From an uncultured Bacteroidota bacterium (GTDB lineage: Bacteria; Bacteroidota; Bacteroidia; Bacteroidales; P3): a stretch of DNA of 64,000 nucleotides. The position numbers and the translations under genes are program-made. The stretch lies in contig CADAQX010000004.1 in NCBI GenBank assembly GCA_902790215.1, forward strand, positions 1-64,000. The letters run 5' to 3'. Within the stretch, counting starts at the first letter, position 1. Every line of letters begins with the position of its first letter. The notes under the pieces are model-generated. The model was not told where the DNA came from, did no database searches, and saw only the letters and a list, made by a program, of their open reading frames with translations. This document shows, one piece after another, positions 14,167-48,059 of the stretch.

Positions 14167-14232
14167 TGAATGTGTTAGTCCTTGGCGCATCAAAGACTCA
14201 CGAATTAACGAATTAACGAATTAACGAGTTCA
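14167..14232 (-). repeat. Iterated-word hairpin repeat, class A copy 1 (inverted orientation)
   Basis: Core at 14172-14201 (GTGTTAGTCCTTGGCGC then ATCAAAGACTCAC) followed by tandem AATTAACG words. It is the reverse complement of the forward copies at 23140, 25033, 27739, 27804 and 27889. Confidence 0.85.
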
Positions 14233-14269
14233 TACAGGTGTGTTCTCTAACTGCAGCAACCCCATAGCA

Positions 14270-15148
14270 ATGAGAAACAAAAAACGTCCCAGTGTCGACA
14301 TAATACTCTGCAGCTACAACCAGGAGGAATATATATCCCAAGCCCTGGAGAGCTTGGTCAACCAACGGGTGGACGCAGATGTAAGGGTGATTGTCGCCGA
14401 CGACTGCTCAACCGACCAGACACCGCAGATAATCCACGAATACCAGACCAAATCCCCATTCCCTTTCATATACCTGAAAGCCAACTCAAACATAGGGATG
14501 AAAGCCAACTACCGCAGAGCCTTTGCGGCATGCCAGGGCGACTACGTGGCCATCCTCGAAGGAGACGACTGGTGGCATGCATCCACACACCTGTCGCAGC
14601 ACATAGACTTCCTTGAAAGCCACCCACGACATTCCATGTCATACAACCTCGTAGCCTACTACTGGCAGGACACCGGCGCTACACACCCTCAGCAATGGCT
14701 CTACAAAGACCTGCAATATCTCTCAATCAACCTCAGACAGCAAATAGCATGGGGCAACCAGATTGGCAACCTCTCATCCTGCATGTTCCGCACACGACTG
14801 CTGCACACCCTGCCTGAGGCTTTCTACCGTCTAAACTTTGCCGACTGGGAACTGGGCATCATGATGGCCCGTAAAGGACCCATCGCCATGCTCCGCGAAG
14901 TCACATCAACATACCGCATCAACAGTAAAGGACAATGGACATCGCTCTCCAACGAAAAGAAATACGATTCCCAGATTCAGTCACTTGACGACATACAACC
15001 CCTGCTGCCCGCCTACTGCAAATGCTACATCCGCTCATTTCAGAAAAACATACGTTCCGGCAAAGAAATGCCATATGTCATACCCTTTAAATACAAACTC
15101 AAAAGTTTTATCAGAAAAAACCTACGCCACTCCGACTCTAAACTCTAA
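14270..15148 (+). CDS. Family 2 glycosyltransferase
   Basis: GT2 enzyme: VDIILCSYNQEEYI and ADDCSTDQTP form the donor-binding part, EGDDWW the metal-binding motif. An in-frame ATG at 14240 is possible, but the conserved fold starts soon after 14270 and the upstream part abuts repeat sequence. The last residues (DSKL) and the stop codon are encoded in the (ACTCTAAA)n tract that follows. Specificity unknown. Confidence 0.87.
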   Translation: MRNKKRPSVDIILCSYNQEEYISQALESLVNQRVDADVRVIVADDCSTDQTPQIIHEYQTKSPFPFIYLKANSNIGMKANYRRAFAACQGDYVAILEGDDWWHASTHLSQHIDFLESHPRHSMSYNLVAYYWQDTGATHPQQWLYKDLQYLSINLRQQIAWGNQIGNLSSCMFRTRLLHTLPEAFYRLNFADWELGIMMARKGPIAMLREVTSTYRINSKGQWTSLSNEKKYDSQIQSLDDIQPLLPAYCKCYIRSFQKNIRSGKEMPYVIPFKYKLKSFIRKNLRHSDSKL

Positions 15149-15190
15149 ACTCTAAACTCTAAACTCTAAACTCTAAACCCTAAACTCTAG
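15134..15190 (+). repeat. Tandem 8-bp repeat (ACTCTAAA)n
   Basis: About seven units, with one CCCTAAA variant, running from the 3' end of one glycosyltransferase gene to six bases before the next start codon. Confidence 0.9.
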
Positions 15191-15195
15191 AACTC

Positions 15196-16416
15196 ATGAG
15201 CAAAAACATACTTGTACTGCCCGGCACATACTGGCAGATAGCTTTAGTGGATAAAATCCGCGAAATGGGACATCACGCCTACGTGGTGAACCCCGCACCC
15301 GACTCCCCTGCATTCAGCCATGCCGACGGCTTCCTCCAGTCGGACATCTTCGACCGCAAGGCTGTCATCCCCTACGGCCAGGCCAACCACATCAACGCTG
15401 TGATGTCCGACCAATGCGATATTGCAATGCCCCTCATTGCAGAACTCGGCGAGGTATTCAACGTTCCTGCCATGGACCGTGCCACCGCTGCCCTCTACAC
15501 CGACAAATTCCTCATGCGTGAATTCTGCAGACAGCACGGCCTACCGCATCCCGAATACATGCAGTGCCGGACAGCGGAAGAGGCAATAGCGTTCATGCAA
15601 ACCCTCGGCAAACCCATTATCATCAAGCCTCTCGACAGCAATGCAAGCCACGGCGTGTTCAAATGCTCCAACCCCGAGGAAATAAAAGAGCATTTTGCCG
15701 AATCGCTGTCATTCTCCCGCGTAGAAAAAAAAGTACTGGCCGAAAGATACATTGAAGGAACTGAATTCACCATCGACTCCATCAAGACCCCGCATGGCCA
15801 CTTCCCATTGGCCATAAGCCAGAAAAAACACTTCCCCCACAACCCCAACATCGCCAACGAGCTGCTGTTTTCACACTACAACCCGGACTTCGACTACGAT
15901 ACCCTTCGTCGAATCAACAACACATTTGTCAACAACACCAACCTCCAGTTCGGTTTCACCCATGCCGAATACAAATACGAGAACGGAGAATTCCTGTTGA
16001 TAGAAATTGCTGCGCGCGGCGGCGGCAACATGATTTCTTCCGCCATCACCCAATACCTCTCCGGCTACGACACCTATCGATACCTGATAGAATGCTCAAC
16101 CGGGAACATTCACGACCAAGACTTCTCAATCCGTCCAGAGTACCGCGACCGGGCTGCCGTACTGAAATTCTTCTCCACCCCCAACGGCGGAGGCAAAGTG
16201 ACGGCAATAGAAGGCAGGGAATATCTCGACAACGAGCCCGACATCAAACACTACCGATTCAACTTCTCCGTAGGCGACACAATATGCGACGCCGTGAACG
16301 ACTCCGCCCGCATCGGCTTCTACATAGCCGGCAGCCAGACAATGGATAAACTGCAACAAGTCATGCAAAACGTTGAACAAAACGTACACATCAAAGTTCA
16401 ATGTGTTAATGCTTGA
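15196..16416 (+). CDS. ATP-grasp family ligase
   Basis: A 406-residue ATP-grasp protein of the carbamoyl-phosphate-synthase-like / biotin-carboxylase-like group: N-terminal Rossmann part (ILVLPGTYWQIALVDKIREMGHHAYVV), an ATP-binding loop around KPLDSNASHGV, and metal-binding residues in EIAARGGGNM. Such enzymes join a carboxylate to an amine via an acyl phosphate. In this locus it may add an amino acid or similar group to a sugar; the substrate is not deducible. Class C hairpin repeats follow. Confidence 0.82.
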   Translation: MSKNILVLPGTYWQIALVDKIREMGHHAYVVNPAPDSPAFSHADGFLQSDIFDRKAVIPYGQANHINAVMSDQCDIAMPLIAELGEVFNVPAMDRATAALYTDKFLMREFCRQHGLPHPEYMQCRTAEEAIAFMQTLGKPIIIKPLDSNASHGVFKCSNPEEIKEHFAESLSFSRVEKKVLAERYIEGTEFTIDSIKTPHGHFPLAISQKKHFPHNPNIANELLFSHYNPDFDYDTLRRINNTFVNNTNLQFGFTHAEYKYENGEFLLIEIAARGGGNMISSAITQYLSGYDTYRYLIECSTGNIHDQDFSIRPEYRDRAAVLKFFSTPNGGGKVTAIEGREYLDNEPDIKHYRFNFSVGDTICDAVNDSARIGFYIAGSQTMDKLQQVMQNVEQNVHIKVQCVNA

Positions 16417-16556
16417 ATGCTTGATTGTGTAAATACGTTGTCCGTTGATAAGTTTATAAGTTTATACGGCTCGCATCATATCAACATATCAACGTATCAA
16501 CATATCAACAAAACACATTCAAGCAATCAAACAATCAGACAATCATGCAATCTTCT
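16407..16556 (-). repeat. Iterated-word hairpin repeat, class C copy 1 with nested outer words
   Basis: Core at 16460-16477 (GTTTATACGGCTCGCATC) between TTGATAAG-type words and ATATCAAC-type words; outside these are TTGAATGC / CAAGCAAT words. It is an inverted copy of 19811-19978. Confidence 0.85.
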
Positions 16557-16561
16557 AAATC

Positions 16562-17263
16562 ATGAATTACACAGAAGAGGCACTCAGCCTCATCGACACA
16601 AATAAAATCTCCACCACCGAAGTGGCCGATGTACTGGGCAAGACGGGACAAGTGGAAGGCGTGCATGCCCTGACACCCGGACTGTTCCGCGCTGGCGAAG
16701 TAAAACTTGTCTACGCAATCAACAACAGCAATTGGCACGTCCACAAACAGCTGGCCGAATCAGACGATATCAAGGACAAAATACTGTTCATATACAACGT
16801 CAACTGCGACCGGGCCATTTTCGGGGACCTGGTAAGCAAATACATCATGCTCTACAAACGGGCAAAAGCCATCGTGGTGAACGGCAAGCTGCGCGACGCC
16901 CACCGCCTTATAAAAGAAAAGTATCCCATCTGGCTCAACGACGTGAGCCCCATAGGGTGTGTCAACCGCCCCAACGGCCCCGACATCGACCCCGAAATGC
17001 TCCGGCAGCTAAGAGCGCAATATGATGGCTCCATCATGGTATGCGACGACAGCGGAGTAGTGATGATACCCAAAAAGGAAATATCCGAAAAGCTAATCAA
17101 CAAACTCAAGTTTATCGAACTCCAGGAAGATATATGGTTCTACTGCGTCGACACCTTGAAAATGTCCACCTTCGACACTGTTTGCCAGAAAAAATATCTT
17201 GAAGAGGATATTCTGGATCACAGATTAATGGCCCAGTTCCGCGAACTTCAAAAAAACCTGTAA
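16562..17263 (+). CDS. RraA-like (HMG/CHA aldolase fold) protein
   Basis: A 233-residue protein resembling the RraA / 4-hydroxy-4-methyl-2-oxoglutarate aldolase fold: the N-terminal STTEVADVLGKTGQV stretch and the C-terminal DDSGVVMIPKKEI stretch are typical. RraA itself binds RNase E, but most relatives are class II aldolases or of unknown function; in a polysaccharide locus a role in making a branched or acidic precursor is more likely. The next gene starts one base after its stop. Confidence 0.7.
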   Translation: MNYTEEALSLIDTNKISTTEVADVLGKTGQVEGVHALTPGLFRAGEVKLVYAINNSNWHVHKQLAESDDIKDKILFIYNVNCDRAIFGDLVSKYIMLYKRAKAIVVNGKLRDAHRLIKEKYPIWLNDVSPIGCVNRPNGPDIDPEMLRQLRAQYDGSIMVCDDSGVVMIPKKEISEKLINKLKFIELQEDIWFYCVDTLKMSTFDTVCQKKYLEEDILDHRLMAQFRELQKNL

Positions 17264-17264
17264 A

Positions 17265-18221
17265 ATGCCCGACACGCCACTCGTCAGTATCTGTTGTTTG
17301 ACTTTCAACCACGAAGCATTCGTCCGTCAATGCCTCGATGGATTCCTGATGCAGAAGACCAACTTCGATATCGAAATCCTCGTCCACGACGACGCATCAA
17401 CAGACAACACCCAAAGCATCCTGCGCGAATACCAGTCAAAGTACCCGGACAAGATTTTCCCACTCTATGAAACAGAAAACAAATATTCCAACGGATACAA
17501 AGGCCGCATGGATATTGTCTTCAACTACGCCCGTGCAAGAGGGAAATATATTGCCACCTGCGAAGGCGACGACTATTGGACCGACCCGCAAAAGCTTCAA
17601 AAACAGGTCGACTTCATGGAGACTCACCCCGAATACTCCGTCTGCTTCCACCGCTGCCAGCACCTCAACACCTACACTGGAGAAATCACCCCCGACCATT
17701 GCGGGCGGCTCATCCCCGCCGGTCAGGAAGGAATCGACATCACTGCCGACATGGCCCTGGGCGACTGGATAACACAACCCCTCACCATGCTGTTCCGGAA
17801 AGAATGCTTCAGCCCCGAATGGCAGAAGAAATATAAATACTACCGCGACATGCACGAGATATACCATCTCCTCAACGCGGGCAAAGGCCACCTGTTCAAC
17901 TTTATCGGAGGCGTGTACCGCTACCACTCAGGAGGTATACACAGCATGATCACCCGGGAGCAATACTGCATAACGTCACTCCCCATCGACGAAGAATTCT
18001 ACCATATCAACCACACCCCGGCAGCCAAACGCAACTACCTCTACACACTTCGGGACTGCATCAACCTCTACTCCGCAAAGAAAAAGAGCAAGGCTCTCGG
18101 CTATATTGTCAAACATTTTGCAGTATCGCACAACCTGCACACACTCGCCAAGCAACTGTTCATATTGTTAAATTCAACTCTAAACTCTAAACTTTCAACT
18201 CAAAACAACTCTAAACTCTAA
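17265..18221 (+). CDS. Family 2 glycosyltransferase
   Basis: GT2 enzyme: VSICCLTFNHEAFVRQCLDG, HDDASTDNT, and EGDDYWTDPQKLQKQ (metal binding). It is closest in the window to the GT at 13066. The C-terminus (LNSTLNSKLSTQNNSKL) is encoded by the ACTCTAAA-type tandem repeat that starts inside the gene, so the true functional end may be near residue 300. Specificity unknown. Confidence 0.87.
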   Translation: MPDTPLVSICCLTFNHEAFVRQCLDGFLMQKTNFDIEILVHDDASTDNTQSILREYQSKYPDKIFPLYETENKYSNGYKGRMDIVFNYARARGKYIATCEGDDYWTDPQKLQKQVDFMETHPEYSVCFHRCQHLNTYTGEITPDHCGRLIPAGQEGIDITADMALGDWITQPLTMLFRKECFSPEWQKKYKYYRDMHEIYHLLNAGKGHLFNFIGGVYRYHSGGIHSMITREQYCITSLPIDEEFYHINHTPAAKRNYLYTLRDCINLYSAKKKSKALGYIVKHFAVSHNLHTLAKQLFILLNSTLNSKLSTQNNSKL

Positions 18222-18283
18222 ACTTTCAACTCAAAACAACTCTAAACTCTAAACCCTAAACTCTAAACTCTAAACTCTAAACT
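18173..18283 (+). repeat. Tandem (ACTCTAAA)n with a 34-bp higher-order repeat
   Basis: ACTCTAAA units alternate with ACTTTCAACTCAAAAC; the 34-bp composite occurs twice. The tract begins in the 3' end of the glycosyltransferase frame and runs up to the ATG of the AMP ligase. Confidence 0.9.
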
Positions 18284-19813
18284 ATGCATAACTCTTTCGA
18301 CAACGGGGTTCTATCCCCTCTGATGCAAAATATTACATCCTGCGCAGACCTCCCGGCATTCTTCATAGGCGGGAAATCATACACCTACCACACACTCGGC
18401 TGTCGCACCACTGCAATACGGCAAACACTGCAGAGCCGTTCCTGCCATCCCGGACAGCGCATAGCCCTTGCCGTGAACGACGACCTCGACACCTACGCAT
18501 CCATCCTAGCCCTGTGGCTGGAAGGCTGTGCCTACGTGCCGCTGCATCCCCTGCAACCCATAGCCCGGAACCTCGAAATCATCAAGCAGACCCAGCCCAC
18601 TCTCATCTTGCACACCTCCCCCGGTTCAACCCTCGCTTCCGAAGCCGCCCGGCAAGGATTCGACACCCTGTGCACCGCTCAGCTGGACGACATCCAAGGC
18701 CTGGCCTGCGACCCCGTGCCGACCCCCGACGAAAGTCTTGCCTACATCCTCTTCACCTCCGGCAGCACAGGAACCCCCAAAGGGGTATGCATATCGCGGG
18801 GAAACCTGGCAGCCTTTATCGACTCCTTCTGGAAAACAGGCATCACCGTCAACCCTGCCGACCGGTGCCTTCAGGCTTTCGACCTCACATTCGACGTAAG
18901 CATCCAGGCCTTCCTCACCGCCCTGCTTCGTGGCGCATGCGTCTACACCATACCCTACGGACAAGTCAAATACCTCCATGCCGCACAACTGATCATAGAG
19001 CAGAGCATCACCCATGCCGCCATGGCGCCCTCCATGCTCACCTACCTCCGGCCATACTTCTCCCAACTCAACCCCCGCAGCCTCAAAGTCACAATCCTCA
19101 CTGCCGAGGCATGCCCCATAGAACTGGCCGAGGCATGGTTCGCCTGTGCCACCGAAACGGACATCTACGACTTCTACGGTCCTACCGAGGGGACAATCTA
19201 CTGCACCTGCCACCGGCTCAAACGCCACGGCGGCAACCCTGCCGCACACGGCATGGCCGCCATCGGTCAACCCCTGGCAAACGTCACGGCCATACTGGTG
19301 GACGAAGACGGAAACCCCGTCGCCAAAGGAGAAAAAGGCGAACTGTGCATTGCTGGAAGACAAGTGACACCGGGCTATTGGAACAACGAGCAAAAAAACA
19401 CAACTGCATTCTTCTCCCGGCGTGAAGGCGACACAACTGTCCGCTACTATCACACCGGCGACCTGTGCCAACTCAACAGCGACGGCAATATACTCTACTA
19501 CGGACGTCTGGACCAGCAGACAAAGATACAGGGCTACCGCGTGGAACTGGGCGAAATAGAGTACCACGCACGCCAATTCAGCCAGCACCGCGCCGTGGCG
19601 ACAGCCTACACCAACCAGCGGGGACTTACTGAAATTGCCCTCTTTGTAGAAACCGCCCCCACCGACACCACATCCCTCTCAAACCACCTTGCCGAACAAC
19701 TGCCCCACTACATGTTGCCGTCACAGATTGTGTGTGTGCCCGAATTCCCGCTCAACAAGTCGGAAAAAATCGACCGTCCCGCACTTGCAAAACTATTGGA
19801 CACACAGCATTGA
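18284..19813 (+). CDS. Adenylate-forming amino-acid (or acid) ligase, DltA-like
   Basis: A 509-residue ANL-superfamily enzyme. Core motif FTSGSTGTPKG at 157-167, DFYGPTEGT, YHTGDL, GYRVELGEIE, and the C-terminal catalytic Lys in NKSEKID. The layout (no transporter, stand-alone adenylation domain) resembles DltA, which activates D-Ala and loads it on a carrier protein. The carrier gene and a GNAT gene follow, so the three likely activate, carry and transfer an acyl or aminoacyl group to the glycan. The substrate is not deducible by eye. Confidence 0.85.
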   Translation: MHNSFDNGVLSPLMQNITSCADLPAFFIGGKSYTYHTLGCRTTAIRQTLQSRSCHPGQRIALAVNDDLDTYASILALWLEGCAYVPLHPLQPIARNLEIIKQTQPTLILHTSPGSTLASEAARQGFDTLCTAQLDDIQGLACDPVPTPDESLAYILFTSGSTGTPKGVCISRGNLAAFIDSFWKTGITVNPADRCLQAFDLTFDVSIQAFLTALLRGACVYTIPYGQVKYLHAAQLIIEQSITHAAMAPSMLTYLRPYFSQLNPRSLKVTILTAEACPIELAEAWFACATETDIYDFYGPTEGTIYCTCHRLKRHGGNPAAHGMAAIGQPLANVTAILVDEDGNPVAKGEKGELCIAGRQVTPGYWNNEQKNTTAFFSRREGDTTVRYYHTGDLCQLNSDGNILYYGRLDQQTKIQGYRVELGEIEYHARQFSQHRAVATAYTNQRGLTEIALFVETAPTDTTSLSNHLAEQLPHYMLPSQIVCVPEFPLNKSEKIDRPALAKLLDTQH

Positions 19814-19978
19814 ATTAATTGCTTGAACGCTTGATTGTGTTATGTTGATATGTTGATACGTTGATATGATGCGAGCCGTATAAACTTATCAATTTATCAA
19901 CGGATAACGTATTTACACAATCAGACACTCAAGCAATCACTTAAGCAATCAAGCAATTAGACAATCAAGCAATTAAAA
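19811..19978 (+). repeat. Iterated-word hairpin repeat, class C copy 2
   Basis: Core GATGCGAGCCGTATAAAC at 19868-19885 between GTTGATATG-type words and TTATCAAC words, then CAATCAAG words. Opposite orientation to copies 1 and 3. Confidence 0.85.
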
Positions 19979-19980
19979 AA

Positions 19981-20226
19981 ATGACACGACAAGAAATCAT
20001 TGATAAACTGCAACCCATCGCCCAAAAAGTCTTTGCCCAGCCCGGGCTGGCACTGCGCGACGACCTGTGCGCCGCCAATCTGCCCGCCTGGACATCCCTC
20101 TCATTCACCCAGTTCCTGACGGAAATCGAGACGGTCTTTAACATCAAGTTCAAGATAATGGAGATACTCCACATGCAGACAATGGGTTCCATCATCGACG
20201 CCACAATGACGCACCTGCCAGAATGA
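19981..20226 (+). CDS. Acyl/peptidyl carrier protein
   Basis: An 81-residue acidic helical protein. The phosphopantetheine attachment segment reads PAWTSLSFTQFLTEIE with Ser39 in the expected position; the usual Asp before that Ser is Thr. It lies between the adenylating enzyme and a GNAT gene whose start overlaps its stop by four bases, supporting a role as carrier for that pathway. Identification rests on length, helix pattern and context. Confidence 0.75.
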   Translation: MTRQEIIDKLQPIAQKVFAQPGLALRDDLCAANLPAWTSLSFTQFLTEIETVFNIKFKIMEILHMQTMGSIIDATMTHLPE

Positions 20227-21284: not shown

Positions 21285-21327
21285 TTGGACTTGATGCAAA
21301 TTAATACTAAAGTTTGACAAGCATAAT

Positions 21328-21450
21328 CAGTCTTTGATTGCTTGATTGTGTAAATACGTTGTCCGTTGATAAGTTGATAAGTTTATACGGCTCGCATCAT
21401 ATCAACATGTCAACGTATCAACATATCAACAAAACACAAGCATTCATGCA
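21328..21450 (-). repeat. Iterated-word hairpin repeat, class C copy 3
   Basis: Core GTTTATACGGCTCGCATC at 21381-21398, flanked by TTGATAAG and ATATCAAC words; same orientation as copy 1 and directly adjacent to repeat R1 copy 2. Confidence 0.85.
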
Positions 21451-21456
21451 ATCTCT

Positions 21457-21686
21457 ATCATGCGTCGTCATTTATTCGATCGTTATTCGATCGTTTTCCC
21501 TTTCTTCTCCGTTCCAGAAAGGGAAAAATGAGGGAAACATATCGAAAAACAATAAGACAAAGAACGACGCAACATCGAGCCCGGAAGGCACACAGAGGAA
21601 CGTTGGGGACATATATGCGACACTATCGGAACGCTGACGAAAGTTGACGTAATCCCTCACGGAATAAAAAGTAAATTACGCGCGAA
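21457..21686 (+). repeat. 230-bp dispersed MITE-like repeat R1, copy 2
   Basis: Same start (GCGTCGTCATTTATTCG) and end (AAATTACGCGCGAA) as copy 1, with scattered substitutions. Confidence 0.8.
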
Positions 21687-21785
21687 GAGGCAAGCTTCTC
21701 ACCGTGTCAGCGCAAAGGTCGCCAGCTGTATTGGACGGAAATAAGGGATGAAACTTGTCAATCTATAGTTAATAAATCTTTCATC

Positions 21786-22433
21786 ATGTACGCCAAAATA
21801 CTTCGACATATTATCCACTTCTACAACCGGATGCGTCTGCGTAATCGCGACTTCTCCCTTATCTCGAATACCTGCATCGGGGGGATTATGAGCCATGAGC
21901 TGAACCTGCAGTTTCGGTCGCCCATTATCAATTGTGCAATCTACGACCACGATGAGTTTTTTATCTTCTGCCGACACCTTGAGCACTATTTATCACTTCC
22001 TCTTGACTTCATACCCCCAAAATGGAACTACCCTATGGCTGTTCTCCATGGCGACTACGGCGATGTTACCATCTATTTCGTCCACTACCACAGTAACGAG
22101 GAAGCCCAAAAAAAATGGGAAGAACGAAAGACAAGAGTAAACCTCGACAATATCATCATCTTGATGGATGGGGACAACTGTAGCGACCAGCAGGTAAGGG
22201 CATTCGATACACTGCCATGGCAGCGAAAAGCCATCATCACTATGAAAGAGTATCCCGAAATAAAATCTGTCTGGGCAATAACCCATCCCGACTATAAGCA
22301 GGGACAGATTCTTGAATACGGCCTCCTAAAACACTCCATACGATGGTTCGAGATGATGGATTACGTACACTTCTTCAATACTGGCAAAATACGTGACAAT
22401 GCATTATTCCGCAATAAAAAGAAAAATCGTTAA
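21786..22433 (+). CDS. DUF1919-type polysaccharide biosynthesis protein
   Basis: A 215-residue protein matching the DUF1919 pattern known from exopolysaccharide loci: NRDFSLISNTCIGG near the start, LNLQFRSPIINCAI, YPMAVLHGDYGDVTIYFVHY, then an SDQQVRAFDTLPWQRKAIIT stretch. Function unproven; probably a sugar modification or transfer. Its 3' end overlaps the deacetylase gene by about 35 to 41 bases. Confidence 0.75.
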   Translation: MYAKILRHIIHFYNRMRLRNRDFSLISNTCIGGIMSHELNLQFRSPIINCAIYDHDEFFIFCRHLEHYLSLPLDFIPPKWNYPMAVLHGDYGDVTIYFVHYHSNEEAQKKWEERKTRVNLDNIIILMDGDNCSDQQVRAFDTLPWQRKAIITMKEYPEIKSVWAITHPDYKQGQILEYGLLKHSIRWFEMMDYVHFFNTGKIRDNALFRNKKKNR

Positions 22434-23136
22434 ACGGATAGACAAACTCTGCTGCCAGCCAATAGAGGTATTCGTCTTCCACGCTGTCTCTGACAGTTTC
22501 GACCCTGCCCTTAACAAGCAGGTCGACTGGTCTTCCTCAACCGAATTCAAACAACGCATTCTTTCATTCAAACAGCAGTACACTTTCATTTCGCTTGACG
22601 AAGCATACCATTGTCTGCACCGGGATCTCACACGACAAAAAAAGCTTGCCGTTCTTACCTGCGACGACGGTTTCGCCTCCATCCTTTCGATACTGCCATT
22701 CCTCGAACACGAACAGGTGCCCATCACGCTATTCATCAACCCCAAATATCTGGATGGGACAAGCATTCGCACAGGCTATGCCACAGCCCCAAAATACATT
22801 ACCCAAAATCAACTATTTGCACTCAAATCCAATCTGACAAGCATCGGCATGCACGGCTACGAGCACCTTGACGCCACAAAACAGACTCCTGAAGAGTTTG
22901 CCGAATCGGTTGACAAATGCATCAACATATTGTCCAGCCATCCTCGCTACATTCCTTTCTTTGCCTACACGTGGGGCAACCACAACGACACTACCGACCG
23001 CATACTGGCCGAAAAGAATATCGTTCCGGTTTTGTGCGACGGCGGAGCAACCCGTCGCTACTATAATGGCATATCGCGCAAACCTATCGACACCCAATAT
23101 CTGCAGTCTGAACTCGTTAATTCGTTAATTCGTTAA
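22399..23136 (+). CDS. NodB-like polysaccharide deacetylase family protein
   Basis: A carbohydrate esterase 4-like protein: TCDDGF in place of the classical TFDDG, and MHGYEH as the His-rich metal motif, so metal binding looks intact. An ATG at 22393 is equally possible; either way the gene starts inside the DUF1919 gene. The last residues (NSLIR) and the stop lie in TTAATTCG repeat words. Likely removes an N- or O-acetyl group from a glycan or glycan precursor. Confidence 0.75.
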   Translation: MHYSAIKRKIVKRIDKLCCQPIEVFVFHAVSDSFDPALNKQVDWSSSTEFKQRILSFKQQYTFISLDEAYHCLHRDLTRQKKLAVLTCDDGFASILSILPFLEHEQVPITLFINPKYLDGTSIRTGYATAPKYITQNQLFALKSNLTSIGMHGYEHLDATKQTPEEFAESVDKCINILSSHPRYIPFFAYTWGNHNDTTDRILAEKNIVPVLCDGGATRRYYNGISRKPIDTQYLQSELVNSLIR

Positions 23137-23200
23137 TTCGTGAGTCTTTGATGCGCCAAGGACTAACACATTAACACATTCACACATTAACACATTTGAC
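23113..23200 (+). repeat. Iterated-word hairpin repeat, class A copy 2
   Basis: Three TTAATTCG words, core at 23140-23169 (GTGAGTCTTTGATGCGCC then AAGGACTAACAC), then ATTAACAC-type words. The left end lies inside the deacetylase gene. Confidence 0.88.
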
Positions 23201-24989: not shown

Positions 24990-25123
24990 AAATTGAAAAA
25001 ATGAATTCGTTAATTCGTAAATGTGTTAATTCGTGAGTCTTTGATGCGCCAAGGACTAACACATTAACACATTAACACATTAATACATTTATTCGTTCAA
25101 CTCTCAACTCTCAACTCTCAACT
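24970..25123 (+). repeat. Composite repeat: AAAATTGA words, class A hairpin copy 3, CAACTCT words
   Basis: Class A core at 25033-25062 between TTAATTCG words and ACATTA words, preceded by GTTGAAAATTGAAAATTG and followed by (CAACTCT)n at about 25097-25123. Confidence 0.85.
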
Positions 25124-25157: not shown

Positions 25158-26555
25158 TTGGTACCTTTCTTCCCAAAACAGATTTCAACTAGGGCCATTT
25201 TTATTTATATCCTATCGTTGGCCGCTATCAGCATTATATTCTTCAAGTATATGATGAAACTTGATTTCATCATCATAGGTATAGTATGGGTGTTGTTATT
25301 CTTCCTGCTGTCAAGCCGCTACACGGTTCGGTGGTCCACTCTTGACGATAAGAAGTTCGTTAGACGGCTGTTTTTCACCGCATTGATTTTCAGAATTGTT
25401 TGGGTTACTTTCTCGTATTTCTACTATTCTATTAAGACTGGGATACCCTTTGAGTTCAGTTCGAGCGATGCACTCGGATATCACGAGGCTGCTATCTGGT
25501 TCAGACAGGTTGGATGGAAAGCCATGTTCGATTATATTTCACGCGCCCCCATCGGCGACACTGGATATCCTGTGTATTTGACTTTGCTTTATTCCGTCAT
25601 CGGCCCCAACGTATATCTGGCACGATTGGTTAAGTCGCTGCTAAGCGCATTCACATGTGTGCTGATCTATAGGTTGTCAAGAAGGGTGATGAACGAGGAG
25701 ACGGGCAGGATGGCGGGGATTTTCTGCTGCCTGGCTCCCAACCTGATTATGTATTGCGGTATGCACCTGAAGGAGACGGAGATGATTTTTCTTACGGTGG
25801 CGGCATTGGAGCGCGCCGACAATCTGCTCCGGGGCAGGTCGGTTAACGTTTGGAATGTTTTGCTGACGGTGTTGCTTGTGGGCAGCCTGTTCACGTTCCG
25901 CTCGGTGCTGGGGTCCACAACTATTTTTGCCATTATAACGGCGCTGGTGTTTTCGAATTCTTCGGTGGTGGGGCGATGGAACCGTGTGGTGCTTATTTCG
26001 TGGGCTGTTCTTGCGCTGGCGGTGTTTGCCAGCGGCACGATTGCCAACGAGGCGCAGGCGTTGTGGCAGAGCCGGAACGACAACCAGATTGCCAAGCGCG
26101 ACTATCAGGTGCACAAGGGTATCAGGTGGGCGAAGTATGCCACGGGTACGGTGATGGCGCCGATGATGTTCGTGCTGCCGTTCCCCACGATGGTGGATGT
26201 GGACGAGCAGTATAACCAGCAGTTGATTAACGGCGGCAACTATGTCCGGAACTTTATGGGTATTTTTGTCTTGATTGGTATTTTCGGTGCCGTCTTTGTC
26301 AAGAAACAATGGCGGGACTTGACAATGGTGGGTGCCTTTGCGATAAGTTATCTGGGTGTTATCAGCGCGAGCGGTTTTGCCAACTCGGAACGGTTCCTGC
26401 TGCCGGGTATGCCGTTTCTGTTGATTATTGCGGCCTATGGCGTGTCGCTGCTGAATGGGGGCAATTACCGCTGGGTTAAGATATGGTATGGGGTGGTTCC
26501 GCTGATGATTGTTGGATGGGCTGTGTTTAAGTTGGGTTCCAGAGGAATTTTGTAA
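25158..26555 (+). CDS. Multi-spanning membrane protein, probable GT-C-type glycosyltransferase (GT39-like)
   Basis: About 465 residues with roughly nine to eleven membrane segments. A large loop after the first helices carries SSSDALGYHEAAIWFRQ and GDTGYPVYLTLLYSVIG, which fits the external catalytic loop of GT39/ArnT-like lipid-linked sugar transferases; a Wzy polymerase is the main alternative. No ATG is available upstream of the first helix, so a TTG start at 25158 is used; the ATG at 25251 would drop that helix. Confidence 0.6.
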   Translation: MVPFFPKQISTRAIFIYILSLAAISIIFFKYMMKLDFIIIGIVWVLLFFLLSSRYTVRWSTLDDKKFVRRLFFTALIFRIVWVTFSYFYYSIKTGIPFEFSSSDALGYHEAAIWFRQVGWKAMFDYISRAPIGDTGYPVYLTLLYSVIGPNVYLARLVKSLLSAFTCVLIYRLSRRVMNEETGRMAGIFCCLAPNLIMYCGMHLKETEMIFLTVAALERADNLLRGRSVNVWNVLLTVLLVGSLFTFRSVLGSTTIFAIITALVFSNSSVVGRWNRVVLISWAVLALAVFASGTIANEAQALWQSRNDNQIAKRDYQVHKGIRWAKYATGTVMAPMMFVLPFPTMVDVDEQYNQQLINGGNYVRNFMGIFVLIGIFGAVFVKKQWRDLTMVGAFAISYLGVISASGFANSERFLLPGMPFLLIIAAYGVSLLNGGNYRWVKIWYGVVPLMIVGWAVFKLGSRGIL

Positions 26556-26635
26556 GTTTAGAGTTTAGGGTTTAGAGTTGAGAGTTTAGAGTTTAGGGTT
26601 TGGAGTTTAGGGTTTAGAGTTTAGAGTTTAGAGTT
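26555..26635 (-). repeat. Tandem (TTTAGAGT)n repeat
   Basis: Reverse complement of the ACTCTAAA tracts, about ten units with GGGTTTAG variants, filling the whole space between two genes. Confidence 0.9.
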
Positions 26636-27727
26636 ATGAAGGTTTTGTATTTGATTGGGGGGTTGAATACGGGGGGAAAGGAGAGGCTGCTTTTGGATGT
26701 GCTGCAGCTGCAGGACGGCCTCCCGTTTGAGGCGTTCTGCATTTATCGCAAGTCGGGGAATCTCGAAAAGCAATTTCGCAATGCCAGCAGGAACACGTTT
26801 CACCTTCCGTCACGAAACGTTGTTGGATTTCTGCTACGCCTGCGGAGGATTATCAAGCGAGGCGGGATTCGGCTGGTCCACGCCCAGAGTTCGTTCGATT
26901 CGCTCTTGGCGGCGGCGGCTTCGTTGGGTATGGGGGTGCGGATTGTTCAGACTGTCCACAGCTATGAGTTTGCCCGCACTGGATGGAGTTCGCTCCTCGA
27001 CAGGATGGCTTTCAGGCTGTGCGACCGGGTTGTTTTTGTGAGCCGGCAGCAGTTGAACCATTATGCCTCGGTGTATCACCTGTCGCCCAATCAGCGGGAG
27101 AAACAGGCGGTGGTGTATAACGGGATTGACTTTTCGCGCTTCGGCCTGAGGGCGCGTGCAGGGGGAGGGAGGCTGAATATGGCGATGGTGGGGAATTTCG
27201 TCCCCGAGAAGGATCAGTACTTTGTGTGCCGGTTTCTGGAACGACTGCATTCGTCGGGGGTCGACTTTGATTTTTATTTTGTCGGCGCAAGGAACGGGAA
27301 CCACCCGGAATGCTACGACCGCGCAGTTGCCTTTTGCGAGCAGCACGGGCTGAACGACTGTGTGCATTTCCTGGGGGGCTGCGACGATGTGCCCGGGCTG
27401 CTGGGCAGGATGGATGCCTTTGTCTATAGCTCGATGAGCGAGACTTTCGGCATTGCGGTTGTGGAGGCCATTGCGACGGGGCTGCCCACTTTTGTGAACG
27501 ACCTTGACGTGTTTTGTGAAATCACCCAGCAGGGCAAATGGGCGGTGTTGTACAGGTCGGGCGACCTGGACGACCTCTGCAACAGGTTCGCTGATTTTAT
27601 AAATGATTCCGATGCCTATTATGCCTCGGCAAAGGAGAATGCACTAGAAGTGCGGAATCTCTATTCCATCAACACACATGTAGAAAATCTGAAAAATATA
27701 TATTTACAAAACTCGTTAATTCGTTAA
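26636..27727 (+). CDS. Family 4 glycosyltransferase
   Basis: GT-B-fold enzyme of 363 residues: N-terminal GGLNTGGKERLLLD, VHAQSSFDSLL, then VVYNGIDFSRF, MVGNFVPEKDQ, and the donor-binding SMSETFGIAVVEAIATGLP with the conserved second Glu. The final residues (NSLIR) and stop are in TTAATTCG repeat words, as in the deacetylase at 22399. Specificity unknown. Confidence 0.88.
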   Translation: MKVLYLIGGLNTGGKERLLLDVLQLQDGLPFEAFCIYRKSGNLEKQFRNASRNTFHLPSRNVVGFLLRLRRIIKRGGIRLVHAQSSFDSLLAAAASLGMGVRIVQTVHSYEFARTGWSSLLDRMAFRLCDRVVFVSRQQLNHYASVYHLSPNQREKQAVVYNGIDFSRFGLRARAGGGRLNMAMVGNFVPEKDQYFVCRFLERLHSSGVDFDFYFVGARNGNHPECYDRAVAFCEQHGLNDCVHFLGGCDDVPGLLGRMDAFVYSSMSETFGIAVVEAIATGLPTFVNDLDVFCEITQQGKWAVLYRSGDLDDLCNRFADFINDSDAYYASAKENALEVRNLYSINTHVENLKNIYLQNSLIR

Positions 27728-28028
27728 TTCGTTAATTCGTGAGTCTTTGATGCGCCAAGGACTAACACATTCTGAACTCGTTAATTCGTAAATGTGTTAA
27801 TTCGTGAGTCTTTTATGCGCCAAGGACTAACACATTCTGAACTCGTTAAACACATTCTGAACTCGTTAATTCGTTAATTCGTTAATTCGTGAGTCTTTGA
27901 TGCGCCAAGGACTAACACATTCACACGTTAACACGTTTACACATTCAAAAACACATTAACACATTTAGTTTAGGGTTTAGAGTTTAGAGTTGAAATTCAA
28001 AATTCAAAAATCAAAATTGAAAAAAAAG
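27709..28028 (+). repeat. Triple class A hairpin array plus TTTAGAGT and AATTCAAA words
   Basis: Class A cores at 27739-27768, 27804-27833 (one variant base, TTTTATGCGCC) and 27889-27918, start-to-start spacing 65 and 85 bp, separated by partial words (ACACATTCTGAACTCG). Then ACGTTAACAC, GTTTAGAG and AATTCAAAA words up to the next start codon. Confidence 0.88.
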
Positions 28029-29719: not shown

Positions 29720-29850
29720 AAGTTGAACGAATAAATGTGTTAATGTGTTAATGTGTTAGTCCTTGGCGCATCAAAGACTCACGAATTAACACATTTACGA
29801 ATTAACGAATTCATTTTTTCACTTTTCAATTTTCAATTTTCAATTTAATT
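29720..29850 (-). repeat. Iterated-word hairpin repeat, class A copy 7, plus TTCAATTT words
   Basis: GTTGAAAGTTGAACG, then TGTTAATG words, inverted class A core at 29753-29782, AATTAACG words, then CAATTTTCAATTTTCAATT. Confidence 0.87.
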
Positions 29851-29883: not shown

Positions 29884-30897
29884 ATGAAAATAGCCATTAC
29901 CGGCGGAGCAGGTTTCATTGGCTCCAATTTATGTGAATATTTCGTTGGGAAAGGATATGATGTCATCTGCCTTGACAACCTTTCGACAGGTTTCAGACGC
30001 AACATTGAACCTCTTCTTGGAAAACCCAACTTCCGGTTTGTTGAGGGCGACATCCGCGACCTCGACACATGCCGCAAGGTGGTGGAAGGGCGTGATGTAG
30101 TGCTGCACGAGGCGGCATTGGGCAGTGTGCCCCGCAGTATCAACGACCCCATCAACACAAACAACAACAACATCGACGGTTTTCTGAACATGCTTGTCGC
30201 AGCGCGCGATGCAAGCATTAAACGGTTTGTCTACGCTGCAAGTTCTTCCACCTACGGCGACAGCAAGGAACTACCGAAGATAGAACATAACATTGGCCGA
30301 CCCCTGTCACCCTATGCCATTACGAAGTATGTCAACGAGCTTTACGCCAATGTCTTCTCAAACCTCTACGGCATCGAGACTGTGGGGTTGCGCTACTTCA
30401 ACGTTTTCGGCCGCCGACAGGACCCCAACGGTGCCTACGCTGCAGTGATTCCCCTGTGGGTCAAGGCGCTGATACACCATGAGCGGCCCTACATCAACGG
30501 CGACGGAAGCTATTCGCGCGATTTCACATATATTGACAATGTCATCCAGGCCAATGAGCTTGCAGCGACAACACCGGCCGAGGTGCTACGCGAAAGAGCC
30601 ACGCTCTATAACATGACACTTCCACCCAACGCTCCCATCGACATGGTGTTCAATGTAGCCTATGGTGGCAACACCACGTTGAACAGCCTATTCAACTGCC
30701 TTCGCACCAACCTGTCACGTTTCGATGCGGAGATAGCCAAGATAGAGCCCTGCTACCGCGACAACCGTCCAGGAGACATACCCCATTCCCAAGCCTCCAT
30801 CATCAAAGCGCAACGGGTGCTTGGCTACCAGCCAAAGTACGATGCCATAGCCGGTTTTGAACAAGCCTGTGAGTGGTATTGGAAAAATATCAAATAA
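29884..30897 (+). CDS. UDP-HexNAc C4-epimerase-like NAD-dependent epimerase (WbpP/Gne type)
   Basis: Extended short-chain dehydrogenase of 337 residues: NAD-binding GGAGFIG at 7-13, SVPRSINDPI at 81-90, which is typical of the WbpP UDP-GlcNAc/UDP-GalNAc 4-epimerase group, and catalytic Tyr144/Lys148 (YAITK). It would supply UDP-GalNAc or UDP-GalNAcA to the pathway. The exact substrate needs assay. Confidence 0.85.
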   Translation: MKIAITGGAGFIGSNLCEYFVGKGYDVICLDNLSTGFRRNIEPLLGKPNFRFVEGDIRDLDTCRKVVEGRDVVLHEAALGSVPRSINDPINTNNNNIDGFLNMLVAARDASIKRFVYAASSSTYGDSKELPKIEHNIGRPLSPYAITKYVNELYANVFSNLYGIETVGLRYFNVFGRRQDPNGAYAAVIPLWVKALIHHERPYINGDGSYSRDFTYIDNVIQANELAATTPAEVLRERATLYNMTLPPNAPIDMVFNVAYGGNTTLNSLFNCLRTNLSRFDAEIAKIEPCYRDNRPGDIPHSQASIIKAQRVLGYQPKYDAIAGFEQACEWYWKNIK

Positions 30898-30984
30898 ATG
30901 TGTTAATGTGTTAATGTGTTAATGTGTTAGTCCTTGGCGCATCAAAGACTCACGAATTAACGAATTAACGAATTAACGAGTTCA
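30898..30984 (-). repeat. Iterated-word hairpin repeat, class A copy 8
   Basis: Three TGTTAATG words, inverted core at 30924-30953, then AATTAACG words to just before the next ATG. Confidence 0.88.
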
Positions 30985-30986
30985 GG

Positions 30987-38996: not shown

Positions 38997-39125
38997 AGAC
39001 GAGAGTTGAGAGTTGAGAAGATTGCATGATTGTCTGATTGTTTGATTGCTTGAGTGATTTGACCGCGCCAGCCACTCAGGAATTAACACAATCAAGCATT
39101 CAAGCAATAATTTCAATTTCCAACT
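38997..39125 (+). repeat. Iterated-word hairpin repeat, class B copy 1
   Basis: GAGAGTTGAG words, GATTGTCTGATTG words, core at 39051-39078 (TGAGTGATTTGACC then GCGCCAGCCACTCA), then CAATCAAGCATTCAAGCAAT. Confidence 0.85.
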
Positions 39126-44019: not shown

Positions 44020-44215
44020 TTGAAGAAAATTGAAAGTTGAAATTATTGCTTGAATGCTTGATTGCTTTAGTGATTGCTTGATTGTCTGATTGCTTGATTG
44101 CTTGATTGTTTGAGTAATTTGACTGCGCCAGCACTCAAGCATTTACACATTCAAGCATTCAGGCATTAATTCAGACAATCATGCAATCTTCTAAATTTTC
44201 ACTTTTCAATTATTC
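44020..44215. repeat. Iterated-word hairpin repeat, class B copy 2
   Basis: GAAAGTTGAAATT words, then TTGATTGC/TTGATTGT words, core at 44111-44137 (TGAGTAATTTGACTGCGCC then AGCACTCA), then CAAGCATTCA words and AATCATGCAATC. Confidence 0.85.
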
Positions 44216-44715: not shown

Positions 44716-44870
44716 TTTTAAAAGTTGAAAATTGAAAATTGAAAATTGAAAGTTGCTGTCGCACCACAGGTCGAGTAATTATTGATTGTCTGATTGTTTG
44801 ATTGCTTGAGTAATTTTACTGCGCCAGCCACTCAGACAATCAAGCAATCAGACAATCAAGCAATCTTTCA
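44716..44870. repeat. Iterated-word hairpin repeat, class B copy 3, with GAAAATTG words
   Basis: Four AAAATTGA words, then GATTGTCTGATTG words, core 44807-44834 (TGAGTAATTTTACTGCGCC then AGCCACTCA), then CAATCAAG words that run into the 3' end of pyrF. Confidence 0.85.
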
Positions 44871-45675: not shown

Positions 45676-45886
45676 TTTTTTTATTGCTTGATTGTTTGAT
45701 TGCTTGATTGTTTGAGTATTTGTTGAATGCTTGATTGTTTGAGGGGAGAAAGGTTTTAAGGTTTTAGGGGAGAAGTGAAAATTTAGAAGATTGCATGATT
45801 GTCTAAGTGCTTGATTGTTTGAGTGATTTGACTGCGCCAGCCACTCAGGAATTAACACAATCATGCATTCAAACAATAACTCAATT
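45676..45886. repeat. Iterated-word hairpin repeat, class B copy 4
   Basis: Several TTGATTGT/TTGATTGC words, an A/G-rich stretch, then core at 45820-45847 (TGAGTGATTTGACTGCGCC then AGCCACTCA) and AATCATGCATTCAAACAATAAC. Confidence 0.83.
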
Positions 45887-46579
45887 TTATGAGGTTACTT
45901 GATGGAATTTCTCGGTAAGCTGCTGGGAGGTGATGTTGCCCAGGTGGTCGTCGGACACGATGCGCCCATGGTTGATGATTATGGCGCGGGAGCACATGGC
46001 TTCCACCTCCTGCATGATGTGGGTGGAGAGTAGCACCACTTTGTCTTTCCCGGCATTCTTGATGACGGAGCGTATCTCCTCTAGCTGGTTGGGGTCAAGA
46101 CCTGTGGTGGGCTCGTCGAGGATGAGAACCTTGGGGTCGTGGATGAGCGCCTGGGCCAGACCGACACGCTGGCGGTAGCCTTTGGAGAGCTGGCCGATAC
46201 GCTTGTTGCTTTCGGGCGTGAGACCCACCAGCTCTATCATGTCTTCAACACGGCTTTTGCCGTCTTTGATGCCATAGATGCCGGCGGAGAAGCGGAGGAA
46301 CTCCCTCACATACATGTCGAGATAAAGCGGGTTGTGCTCGGGCAGGTAGCCTATCTGCCGCCGTACTTCCAAGGGATCTTCATAGATGCTGTGGCCACAT
46401 ACTGTGGCCTCGCCCTCGGTGGGTGGGATGTAGCAGGTGAGGATTTTCATCAGCGTGGATTTGCCCGCCCCGTTGGGGCCCAGCAATCCGACCACTTCAC
46501 CCTCCTTGACGGAAAAACTGACGTCGTCCAGGGCGCGCTGCCCGTCATAGATTTTGGTAATATGCTGTACTTCTATCAT
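45887..46579 (-). CDS. gldA: ABC transporter ATPase, GldA-like
   Basis: A 230-residue ABC ATPase: Walker A GPNGAGKST at 34-42, signature variant LSKGYRQR near 134, Walker B LILDEP near 156-161, and the YLPEHNPLY stretch typical of GldA and NosF-like ATPases. GldA, with GldF/GldG, is known from gliding motility in Bacteroidetes; no permease gene is next to it here, so the symbol is provisional. Confidence 0.8.
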   Translation of the reverse strand: MIEVQHITKIYDGQRALDDVSFSVKEGEVVGLLGPNGAGKSTLMKILTCYIPPTEGEATVCGHSIYEDPLEVRRQIGYLPEHNPLYLDMYVREFLRFSAGIYGIKDGKSRVEDMIELVGLTPESNKRIGQLSKGYRQRVGLAQALIHDPKVLILDEPTTGLDPNQLEEIRSVIKNAGKDKVVLLSTHIMQEVEAMCSRAIIINHGRIVSDDHLGNITSQQLTEKFHQVTS

Positions 46580-46582
46580 ATT

Positions 46583-46706
46583 ATTATTGCTTGATTGTCT
46601 GATTGCTTGATTGCTTGAGTATTTGTTGATTGCTTGAAAAGTTGAAAATTGAAAGTTGAGAGTTGAGAATTATCCGGGTGCGGCAGCAATTTTCAACTTT
46701 CAATTT
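46583..46706. repeat. Iterated-word hairpin (TTGATTGC words and TTGAAAAT arms)
   Basis: TTGATTGC words followed by an inverted pair: 46636-46659 (AAAGTTGAAAATTGAAAG) and 46692-46715, about 22 of 24 complementary, around a TCCGGGTGCGGCAGC core. The right arm reaches into the last codons of the amidase gene. Confidence 0.8.
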
Positions 46707-48059
46707 TCAATTTTCTTGCATTTCCTTGGCCTTTTGCAGCGATATGCGCTCTCCGTTCAGGAAGGCTACCACAAAGGCATCCTTGAAACCCTTCTCGCGC
46801 ACTTCCTTCTGATAGTTGGCTGCTTCGCGGGCCGTGGCAAAGCTGCCGGTGGTGTAGCAATAGGTGTTCTTCTGCATGTAGTATTCGTAGTCAGTGATGC
46901 CCTTGAACTCGCGTGCATTCGCTTTCACTTCTTTGCCGCTGGTCATAAACTGCACTTTATAGACTATGCCCGAAGCAGCGGGATTAGACTTAGGCTGGGG
47001 CTCAGGCTCGGCCGGAGCCACCTCCGGGGTAGGCTCGGCCACACGGGGTTCGTCCTTGGGCAGTGGAGGCTCCACATGCGTCTGTGCGGTGGAGGGGACA
47101 AAGGTGGTGGGTTGGTCGGCGGCAGGAGCCTCGGGGGTCTTCTCGGCCACAGGTGCAACAGGCGTTGTGTCGACCTTTTCTGGCTTGACCGGTGCAACAT
47201 CGGCAGGCTTGGCCTGTTCTTTCTTTGAGTTTTTGTCTTTATAGCCTTTCATCTCAATCTTCAGGTTGCCCGGAGCCTTCACACCCTCGACCGAGCTTTT
47301 GTAGTTCACAAATGCCTTGAATATGCTCACCACGATGGTGGCCTGTCCCTCGTCAGACATCATATACTGTTCCTCTTCGGGGTTGCTGATAAAGCCCACC
47401 TCGGTGAGCACTGCGGGCATGGCGGTCTTATATAGCACGAATATCTCGGCTTGCTTCACACCGCGGTTGATTGTCTTGATGGCCGACTTGTACTGCTCCT
47501 GAATATACCCTGCAAAGTCGAGGCTCTTGTCGAGATAGGCGTTCTGATACATGGCAAACATCACATAGCTCTCAGGCGAGTTGGGGTCGAATCCCTGATA
47601 GTCGCTGTTGTCCTTGTAGCCTTTCTCCAACAGTATGTCGGCATTCTCCTTCTTAGCCACCTCCATGTTAGCCTTGCTCTGCGAAAGACCCATCACATAG
47701 GTTTCCACACCCGTGGGGGTGGAATTGGTCCACGAGTTGCAGTGTATGGAGATAAACAGGTCGGCCTTGGCCTTGTTGGCTATGCGGGCACGCTCCGCCA
47801 GCGTAATGTCGACATCAGTGGTGCGCGTATAGATTATCTTCACGTCCGGATAATTGTCCTCAATCAGCTTACCCAGCTTCAAAGCCATCTGCAACGTAAG
47901 GGTCTTCTCCTGGCATTTTCTTCCCACCGCACCCGGCTTGTCGCCGCCGTGCCCGGCATCAATCACCACAGTTTTCACCTGTCCAACCGTTTTTTTCTGA
48001 GAAAAAGAGGCTCCATTGATGCAGGCAAGCACAATAAAAAAGCAAAATAAGCGTTTCAT
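46707..48059 (-). CDS. N-acetylmuramoyl-L-alanine amidase with SPOR domain
   Basis: Periplasmic peptidoglycan amidase (Amidase_3). A 450-residue protein with signal peptide (1-20), zinc ligands in VVIDAGHGGDKPG, the Glu of RKCQEKTLTLQ and SIHCNSW, plus the EVGFISNPEE segment. A Pro/Ala/Glu-rich linker (about 275-360) leads to a C-terminal SPOR-like domain that would bind denuded septal glycan, suggesting a role in cell separation. The ATG at 48059 is used because the -7 box at 48126-48133 excludes the longer frame. Confidence 0.92.
   Translation of the reverse strand: MKRLFCFFIVLACINGASFSQKKTVGQVKTVVIDAGHGGDKPGAVGRKCQEKTLTLQMALKLGKLIEDNYPDVKIIYTRTTDVDITLAERARIANKAKADLFISIHCNSWTNSTPTGVETYVMGLSQSKANMEVAKKENADILLEKGYKDNSDYQGFDPNSPESYVMFAMYQNAYLDKSLDFAGYIQEQYKSAIKTINRGVKQAEIFVLYKTAMPAVLTEVGFISNPEEEQYMMSDEGQATIVVSIFKAFVNYKSSVEGVKAPGNLKIEMKGYKDKNSKKEQAKPADVAPVKPEKVDTTPVAPVAEKTPEAPAADQPTTFVPSTAQTHVEPPLPKDEPRVAEPTPEVAPAEPEPQPKSNPAASGIVYKVQFMTSGKEVKANAREFKGITDYEYYMQKNTYCYTTGSFATAREAANYQKEVREKGFKDAFVVAFLNGERISLQKAKEMQEN

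Follow-up and report, generated by a model that had tools for sequence, protein, structure and literature searches.

What are the short hairpins that recur between the genes of an uncultured Bacteroidota bacterium (Bacteroidales, P3; assembly GCA_902790215.1), and how did they reach their places? The window, that is the whole stretch of 64,000 nucleotides (nt) analysed here, corresponds to positions 1 to 64,000 of contig CADAQX010000004.1 (C4:1-64000 in our numbering) in a 2.98-Mb draft genome of 40 contigs. A typical element consists of a GC-rich core of 18-21 nt between two arms of tandem 7- or 8-nt words. We consider that these elements are a genus-restricted family of non-autonomous mobile hairpins, similar to repetitive extragenic palindromic (REP) sequences and miniature inverted-repeat transposable elements (MITEs), whose arms change by slippage, and we put the probability of this reading at roughly 0.6. 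The evidence is the dispersal of the elements, their presence or absence at the same gene junctions in relatives, the common ends of one class, a polar nesting of one class in another, and a difference of one 8-nt word at an orthologous copy.

The cores were sorted into classes A (TTTGATGCGCCAA), B (TTTGACYGCGYCAG) and C (TGATGCGAGCCGTAT) and a class with 7-mer arms (GCTGCCGCACC), all of them GC-rich imperfect palindromes. The layout of class A is (TTAATTCG)n TGAGTC-TTTGATGCGCC-AAGGACTA (ACACATTA)n, that of class B is GATTGC(TTGATTG[CT])n TTGAGTRATTTGACYGCGYCAGC(C)ACTC followed by words like AAGCATTTACACAATCAAGCATTCAAGCAAT, and that of class C is (GTTGATA[TC])n TGATGCGAGCCGTATAAAC (TTATCAAC)n GGACAACG. 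In the further class, arms of TTGAAAG and similar 7-mers surround TTGCTGCCGCACCCGGATAA (seven cases) or a related core (four cases). Hairpins lacking the GC core were also observed, five with B arms and one with A arms (L017), and the left arm of one A copy (L020) was wholly missing. A reading of the window by itself (the original prediction) had proposed one dispersed hairpin family with related A and B cores, imperfect palindromes and nested word sets around C, and our analysis agrees with it: eight A cores (seven exact and one with 1 mismatch), four B cores (differing from the word given there at no more than 2 positions) and three C cores, all exact, were located where it had placed them. 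The additional degenerate C copy was not found, the window containing only three C cores within 3 mismatches. The words, described there as 7-9 nt long, are indeed tandem; their period is corrected to 8 in A, B and C and to 7 in a separate set.

Subsequently, the dispersal of the cores was quantified. Matching across the host genome, with up to 2 mismatches for A and up to 3 for B and C, gave 32 matches for A, 65 for B and 60 for C (157 in total), and the reversed-pattern control gave 0 for each class. The window and 80 fetched stretches together yielded 140 distinct copies, namely 32 of A, 58 of the 65 of B and 50 of the 60 of C. Relative to called open reading frames (ORFs), 136 of these could be placed: 117 lie between the ORFs and 19 within a called ORF of at least 80 amino acids (aa), several of the latter in short ORFs or with the core near one end. 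The core was identical in 22 of the 32 A copies and in 30 of the 50 C copies. Class B, and only this class, showed fixed, imperfect inverted ends of ~35 bp as in a MITE, many copies being ~90 bp long; the outermost ATTGC lay at -31 from the core in 31 of the 58 copies, and the outermost GCAAT ended +35/36 after the core in 32 of them. It might be supposed that the elements never moved, and that slippage created them on the spot as simple-sequence arrays, which template switching then turned into palindromes. The 8-nt and 7-nt units, the change of word number at an orthologous copy, the homogenisation of words arm by arm and the existence of direct 7-mer arrays without cores are consistent with such an origin. 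Identical 18-21-nt cores at dozens of unrelated loci, and in other species, already disfavour it, as do the common B ends and the insertion of another element inside B (see below), and we regard it as improbable.

At the level of the genus, 99 genomes were examined with models of B and A at an E threshold of 1e-4, the number of candidates scored per genome being limited to 44 or 48. The B model matched 51 and the A model 43 of the 99, the E-values being rough owing to a short calibration. The exact A/B pattern was present in 12 of these genomes, and the reversed control gave one match (G058). In an order-wide sample of 198 genomes from 151 genera, which includes only two others of the same family, the host genome was the sole match of the B model at E 1e-6. 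The exact B core was found in 15 stretches, all from metagenome-assembled genomes (MAGs) of uncultured Bacteroidales, and it is carried by five other named MAGs (RUG264, RUG348, RGIG7974, SRR10912534_bin.42 and UBA1208). Two exact core patterns had no match in viral contigs, and B, the one pattern searched against plasmids and phages, had none there. The searches of genome and genus that the original prediction had proposed thus confirmed the spread, and the elements are not limited to this locus or this strain. That they are artefacts of MAG assembly might be suspected from a draft of 40 contigs. For the family this is refuted by the exact B core in other named MAGs, the B matches in 51 genomes and the orthologous copies in sister species, so that we give an artefact practically no weight; single arrays could be collapsed.

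We then compared the same gene junctions in relatives. In ten relatives, gene matches were ~63-75% identical at the nucleotide level, and dispersed matches to class A copies reached up to 98% among the matches listed. A polysaccharide locus of the window was found as nine loci in eight relatives, one of which (L129) was left out of the junction counts. The A element at 14177 had no relative with both neighbours, and the tested sites were A at 30929, 25040 and 23147 and C at 19867 and 21381. At 30929, one of eight relatives (G027) carries an A copy; the empty junction is 2-5 bp long in six relatives, and in G021 it is 49 bp long with no element. No core was present at 25040 in eight relatives (one has an extra 0.9 kb), at 23147 in six (three have an extra ~1.2 kb), at 19867 in six or at 21381 in seven, and some junction spacers in the relatives hold additional genes. 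In total, 1 of 35 cells of relative and junction contained a core.

Furthermore, two of the relatives, G021 and G027, could be compared directly, the main collinear blocks being ~86-97% identical in nucleotides. Eight places were obtained after merging, two shared copies having been listed from both sides and a loose arm-less A match (c36:15640) having been dropped. One A element and one C+A composite were present only in G027, and one C element and one core-less A/B hairpin were common to both. The core-less hairpin is longer by one 8-nt word in G021, next to a 3-nt difference in the opposite direction. At one matched junction, the hairpin inside a 7-mer array is a C element in G021 and one of another kind in G027. 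In addition, G027 has a 53-bp array of direct 7-mers (TCCCAATTCT...AATTCCCA; C36, ~50.46 kb) that is exactly missing in G021. Two more block pairs of these genomes contained no A, B or C core.

To what extent do the elements fold? Fourteen stretches of the window were folded as single-stranded DNA and compared with dinucleotide shuffles, and 12 of them gave z-scores of -1.41 to -7.25. The original prediction that every element can form a long stem did not hold, as two A stretches showed no fold beyond the core: that at 14167-14230 (z -0.22) and the first unit of an A triple, the only unit of the triple folded alone (cut as 27712-27780; z +0.25). It had also taken the left words as largely the reverse complement of the right words, which is correct up to systematic mismatches and incorrect for simple complements. 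The arms are mostly heterotypic, with one or two mismatches per unit, and each arm tends to homogeneity. Read toward the core, the left words of A are TTAAT followed by TCG (55), GTG (11), TCT (8) or rarer endings, and the right words, as reverse complements, are TTAAT followed by GTG (22), GCG (4) or rarer endings, TCG being found 0 times. In C, the 121 left words read GTTGATA followed by T (85) or C (36), and 84 of 89 right words end in A. The two arms of B are usually one rich in TTGATTG (L) and one rich in TTGAATG or GTTAATG (R), and the 58 copies comprise 23 L-R, 10 L-mixed, 8 R-L, 5 L-L and 12 other combinations. The core of the R-L copies has the opposite orientation to their arms; six of the eight have the core end CGCCAGT in common, and the R-L state may therefore reflect few events.

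Pairing of B arms was weaker within a copy (-25.5 kcal/mol) than with the arms of other copies (-28.3 kcal/mol), and 0 of 2000 permutations gave a value as weak. Across species, 43 of 44 copies were used, one with short arms having been dropped; B-like copies again paired at -27.0 with their own partner vs -29.1 with others (29 copies, p 0.996), and A-like copies (14) gave p 0.13. The A copies of the host genome showed no significant difference (p 0.47). Most simply, words would be homogenised inside each arm and not between arms, although this is not universal. Co-variation of the arms copy by copy was also considered as proof of a selected stem and was rejected, the pooled p of 0.0014 being mainly the difference of two classes. 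RNAalifold pairs numbered 6 in A, 12 in B and 13 in C; double changes occurred at two of them, each a B pair.

The elements may alternatively be functional and kept by selection as terminators, stabilisers of mRNA 3' ends or protein-binding sites, for which the inverted octamer arrays of Geobacter offer a precedent of interpretation (PMC2700814). They are mostly intergenic and lie somewhat less often in divergent gaps (11 of 117 vs 37 of 224 background gaps); some insertions are common to sister species and little changed, the pairing of C arms is slightly stronger within a copy than between copies (p 0.03), and the arms of L196 match word by word. Against this, orientation to co-directional neighbours (same/opposite) was near even in A (11/11) and B (13/14), being 10/21 in C, so that a strand-specific RNA signal has no support in A and B. 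The rarity of the core at the junctions of relatives and the weaker pairing of B arms with their own partners, with no significant difference in A, also disagree with selection. No Rfam match was obtained at the elements at the gathering score, the only match in the window being a tRNA at 4786-4873. We consider a selected function rather unlikely. Every copy is nevertheless a possible extra stem in the transcripts that cross it.

The order in which the elements lie inside one another is polar. Among 60 pairs of neighbouring B-word arrays within 700 bp, 44 were L-R, 3 R-L, 6 L-L and 7 R-R. At the centre of the 44 L-R pairs was B in 32 cases, C in 5, A in 1 and another sequence in 6, the last being five loops without a GC core and one GGGTTT 7-mer hairpin. 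Of 30 neighbouring 7-mer arrays within 260 bp, 17 were inverted as in a hairpin, 5 opposite and 8 direct. Over the 140 copies, flanking 7-mer sides were of hairpin polarity 50 times vs 2 opposite, and B words flanked C on 29 sides vs 1 and A on 18 vs 0. A D element of ~64 bp (CGTTGTACA...GTCACGAAG) occupies one identical place in the B right arm of four copies of two subfamilies (L068, L069, L071 and L077), and in three of these its ends carry a TAA(C) repeat; B is thus hit outside its centre too. A tentative alternative for the layering is growth at hairpin tips, in which a non-RAYT activity would insert or rebuild short elements at extruded tips and add 7-8-nt words in step. The layers would then run from 7-mers outside through B words to an A or C core, and the centres would be interchangeable and invertible. 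We think this possible, at a low probability.

Other small elements were seen in the same genomes. A fifth D copy adjoins an E element in L055. The E element (~190 bp; AACCCAAATCGGTCATTAG...CTAATGACCGATTTGGGGT) is found in G021 (C58, ~110.6-110.8 kb) and is missing at the otherwise matching site of G027 (C36, ~11.6 kb), and E-like ends adjoin B copies in the host genome too. At ~17.65-17.81 kb of C36, G027 has an insertion of ~162 bp with inverted ends (AGAAGCTGTTTAAATT) that is not in G021 and resembles a MITE.

A mobilising enzyme was also sought. Ordinary REP sequences would be mobilised by a REP-associated tyrosine transposase (RAYT, or TnpA_REP) of the HUH, Y1 type, and the elements recall them in size, imperfect palindromic GC core, intergenic place and copy number. 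The profile Y1_Tnp (PF01797), the only enzyme family searched in this way, had 130 matches in 63 of the 99 genus genomes, two of them in the host genome. Y1 was present in 17 of the 23 genomes in which B matched 10 times or more vs 46 of the 76 others (Fisher p 0.32). At a threshold of 1 B match the p value was 0.54, and at a threshold of 5 (25 of 33 vs 38 of 66; p 0.08) there was a weak trend toward association. Six of the 23 B-rich genomes have no Y1 match, although, MAGs being incomplete, this absence is no proof; G014 and G057 (97% complete in the genome table) contain 20 and 10 B matches, respectively, and no Y1. We also read 32 stretches representing 30 distinct Y1 loci of the 130 matches, both host matches included, and no A, B or C element was seen adjoining the gene. 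Only three loose A core matches were present, one of them at L011:4545; the other two, which were read, had no word arrays. In the host stretch with the long RAYT gene, word arrays lie ~4 kb from the gene (L012:1700-2260). The Y1, RAYT or IS200-type genes of L138, L139 and L011 have flanking hairpins of their own with other sequences (GCGGATTTGCAATCCGAC; CCCAGGGCGTTGCCCTGGG). No GTAG or GTGG was seen by eye at the hairpin foot in our alignments. Some B cores read GCGTCAGC (CGTC is the tag of the second REP superfamily; PMC3733652), in an unsystematic look, inside the core and not at the foot. RAYT was accordingly rejected as the likely current mover on the family search, the 30 loci and the association test, and a RAYT did not clearly track with the cores; we hold ordinary REP sequences moved by RAYT to be quite unlikely.

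In the long RAYT gene of the host (L012:6371-8053; G000:C19), the RAYT domain (NHVH...YILNNP) lies in a 560-aa frame with a start that looks HTH/WYL-like by inspection and with in-frame TGFQPV repeats, and similar frames of 565 and 597 aa are present in G021 and G027. In-frame repeats are described for RAYT subclass 2.4 in the part of PMC6006769 available, and we would tentatively place the gene in that subclass; the assignment is our own.

We return to the reading of a mobile, slippage-prone hairpin family. In this scheme, new copies would land at mainly intergenic sites, probably through an enzyme able to recognise single-stranded DNA folded at the core or the arms. The arms would then lengthen, shorten and homogenise by slippage of whole words, each arm largely alone, so that the two arms would diverge at fixed unit positions. 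Later elements would insert into earlier ones, often centrally, and produce nested hairpins. Enzyme-driven movement, the hairpin form as the substrate and a neutral or selfish rather than useful nature are what we infer. Several observations weigh against this scheme. No transposase was found to account for movement: besides the six B-rich genomes lacking Y1, 14 stretches between close copies (of 35 close pairs) were read by eye, and the genes in them looked host-like. Both common B ends were present in only 17 of the 58 copies, and target duplication was not clear in class B, as 2 of these 17 had at least 4 nt vs a mean of 0.57 and a maximum of 3 in shuffles. Several nested copies are one common composite body, which is also present in G094 and G017 (L189 and L194); the nesting counts are consequently not independent, and the events were fewer than the nested copies. 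Targets off the hairpin centre occur, namely the right arm of B, which is hit by D, and a direct 7-mer array of G021, which holds a C copy. Arms are not drifting apart everywhere, as own-partner pairing is slightly better in C and as the alternating words of L196 (G082) match on both arms and give an almost perfect fold. Finally, insertions shared by sister species (L157/L158, L177/L178 and L173/L175, B or B-like; L190/L191, A) weigh on any claim of current activity.

The elements of the window are distributed as follows. Class A was found at 14167..14224 (-; right arm almost gone, z -0.22), 23110..23192 (+; between two polysaccharide genes, the left arm overlapping the upstream stop codon), 25003..25100 (+; z -3.58), 29725..29810 (-; z -3.64) and 30895..30985 (-; after an epimerase-type gene, z -3.05). 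Three further A units at 27710..27962 (+) lie head to tail, joined by CACATTCTGAACTCG, and the identical join is present in other clusters of the genome. Class B was found at 39020..39107 (+; z -2.89), 44055..44195 (+; additional outer words, z -6.77), 44780..44865 (+; near-perfect arms, both of L type, z -7.25) and 45787..45878 (+; z -2.00). B-word arrays without a GC core lie at 45683..45742 (+) and 46583..46636 (+), the latter adjoining a hairpin with 7-mer arms and the core TTATCCGGGTGCGGCAGCAA at 46633..46711 (+; z -5.56), a class that the original prediction had not listed. The C elements at 16416..16530 (-; z -5.81), 19830..19940 (+; z -3.42) and 21325..21440 (-; z -3.09) all lie within B words. 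Direct 7-mer arrays are present at 15135..15195 (+; (ACTCTAA)n, with no hairpin partner), 18175..18283 (+; the listed words are missing from the spacer in six of six relatives) and 26555..26635 (+; the corresponding junction is occupied in G021 by a C element and in G027 by a different hairpin, which lies within a 7-mer array).

The region 13066-31937 is a polysaccharide-type cluster with genes for glycosyltransferases, ATP-grasp, AMP-binding, asparagine synthase and epimerase proteins, and eight A cores lie in it within ~17 kb vs 32 in the whole genome; elements inside such gene clusters each add a possible intergenic stem. Tandem repeats of TATGGC type at 38797-38878 lie within the ORF 36469-38955 (Wzz/GNVR/AAA_31), which resembles a polysaccharide tyrosine kinase, and would give its protein a tyrosine-rich tail.

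Finally, the elements were compared with known systems. A search of open PubMed Central (PMC) papers gave no description of this Bacteroidales family, which is not proof of absence. REP elements have many intergenic copies, imperfect palindromic GC cores and clusters (PMC6006769 and PMC3733652, as far as the available parts describe them); the present elements differ in their long word arms, in the lack of an adjoining RAYT in 30 loci and of clear tracking with Y1_Tnp, and in that no GTAG or GTGG foot was seen. The BrickBuilt MITE of Porphyromonas gingivalis is likewise a non-autonomous Bacteroidales element with a tandem array, but its description, in the part available, gives direct repeats of 23 nt, a leader and a tail, and short inverted ends like those of a known insertion sequence, with no inverted word array (PMC4596501). 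The TAACTGA repeats of Beggiatoaceae, Cyanobacteria and five Bacteroidetes are also intergenic tandem 7-mers, but according to the accessible portion of PMC4679880 they are direct with one inverted case, and most of those in the paper's main genome lie just upstream of start codons.

Nearer in design are the short tandemly repeated repetitive (STRR) heptamers of cyanobacteria (PMC2670836) and the P6b hairpin of the Nostoc trnL intron (PMC3488679), in which 7-bp repeats form hairpins. As here, degenerate 7-nt tandem words pair, the word copy number changes, and extra indel elements occur; in contrast, their units are usually 7 bp, the phylum is another, and the available text describes no dispersed family with a GC core. 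The closest printed design is, on the parts of the report available, that of the inverted arrays of Geobacter metallireducens (PMC2700814), compared by description only: 48 sequences of four tandem octanucleotides (GTTGCTYN), paired on opposite strands, and 16 sequences of mostly five tandem heptanucleotides (MTYCTGA) in opposite-strand pairs, named "predicted global regulator binding sites" of classes 1-3 and regarded as possible IHF/HU sites. Tandem words of 7-8 nt, inverted pairs and multiple copies are common to both systems. In contrast to the present elements, the spacing between the Geobacter pairs is described as variable and the available description mentions no conserved GC core; ISGme8/9 may sit at a fixed distance from those arrays. 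With these two systems in print, a design without precedent, as the original prediction had it, is not supported. Folded or inverted arrays of 7-8-nt words were thus noted separately in Geobacter and cyanobacteria, the function being called putative (PMC2700814) or, for STRR, not known (PMC2670836) in the parts available. What the present family adds to the printed systems is a conserved core, a genus-wide distribution and sister genomes with readable changes. As these genomes are ~86-97% identical and, at matching junctions, carry the elements, lack them or have them in altered form, the birth of the arrays, the complementarity of the arms and the mover become questions that can be asked.

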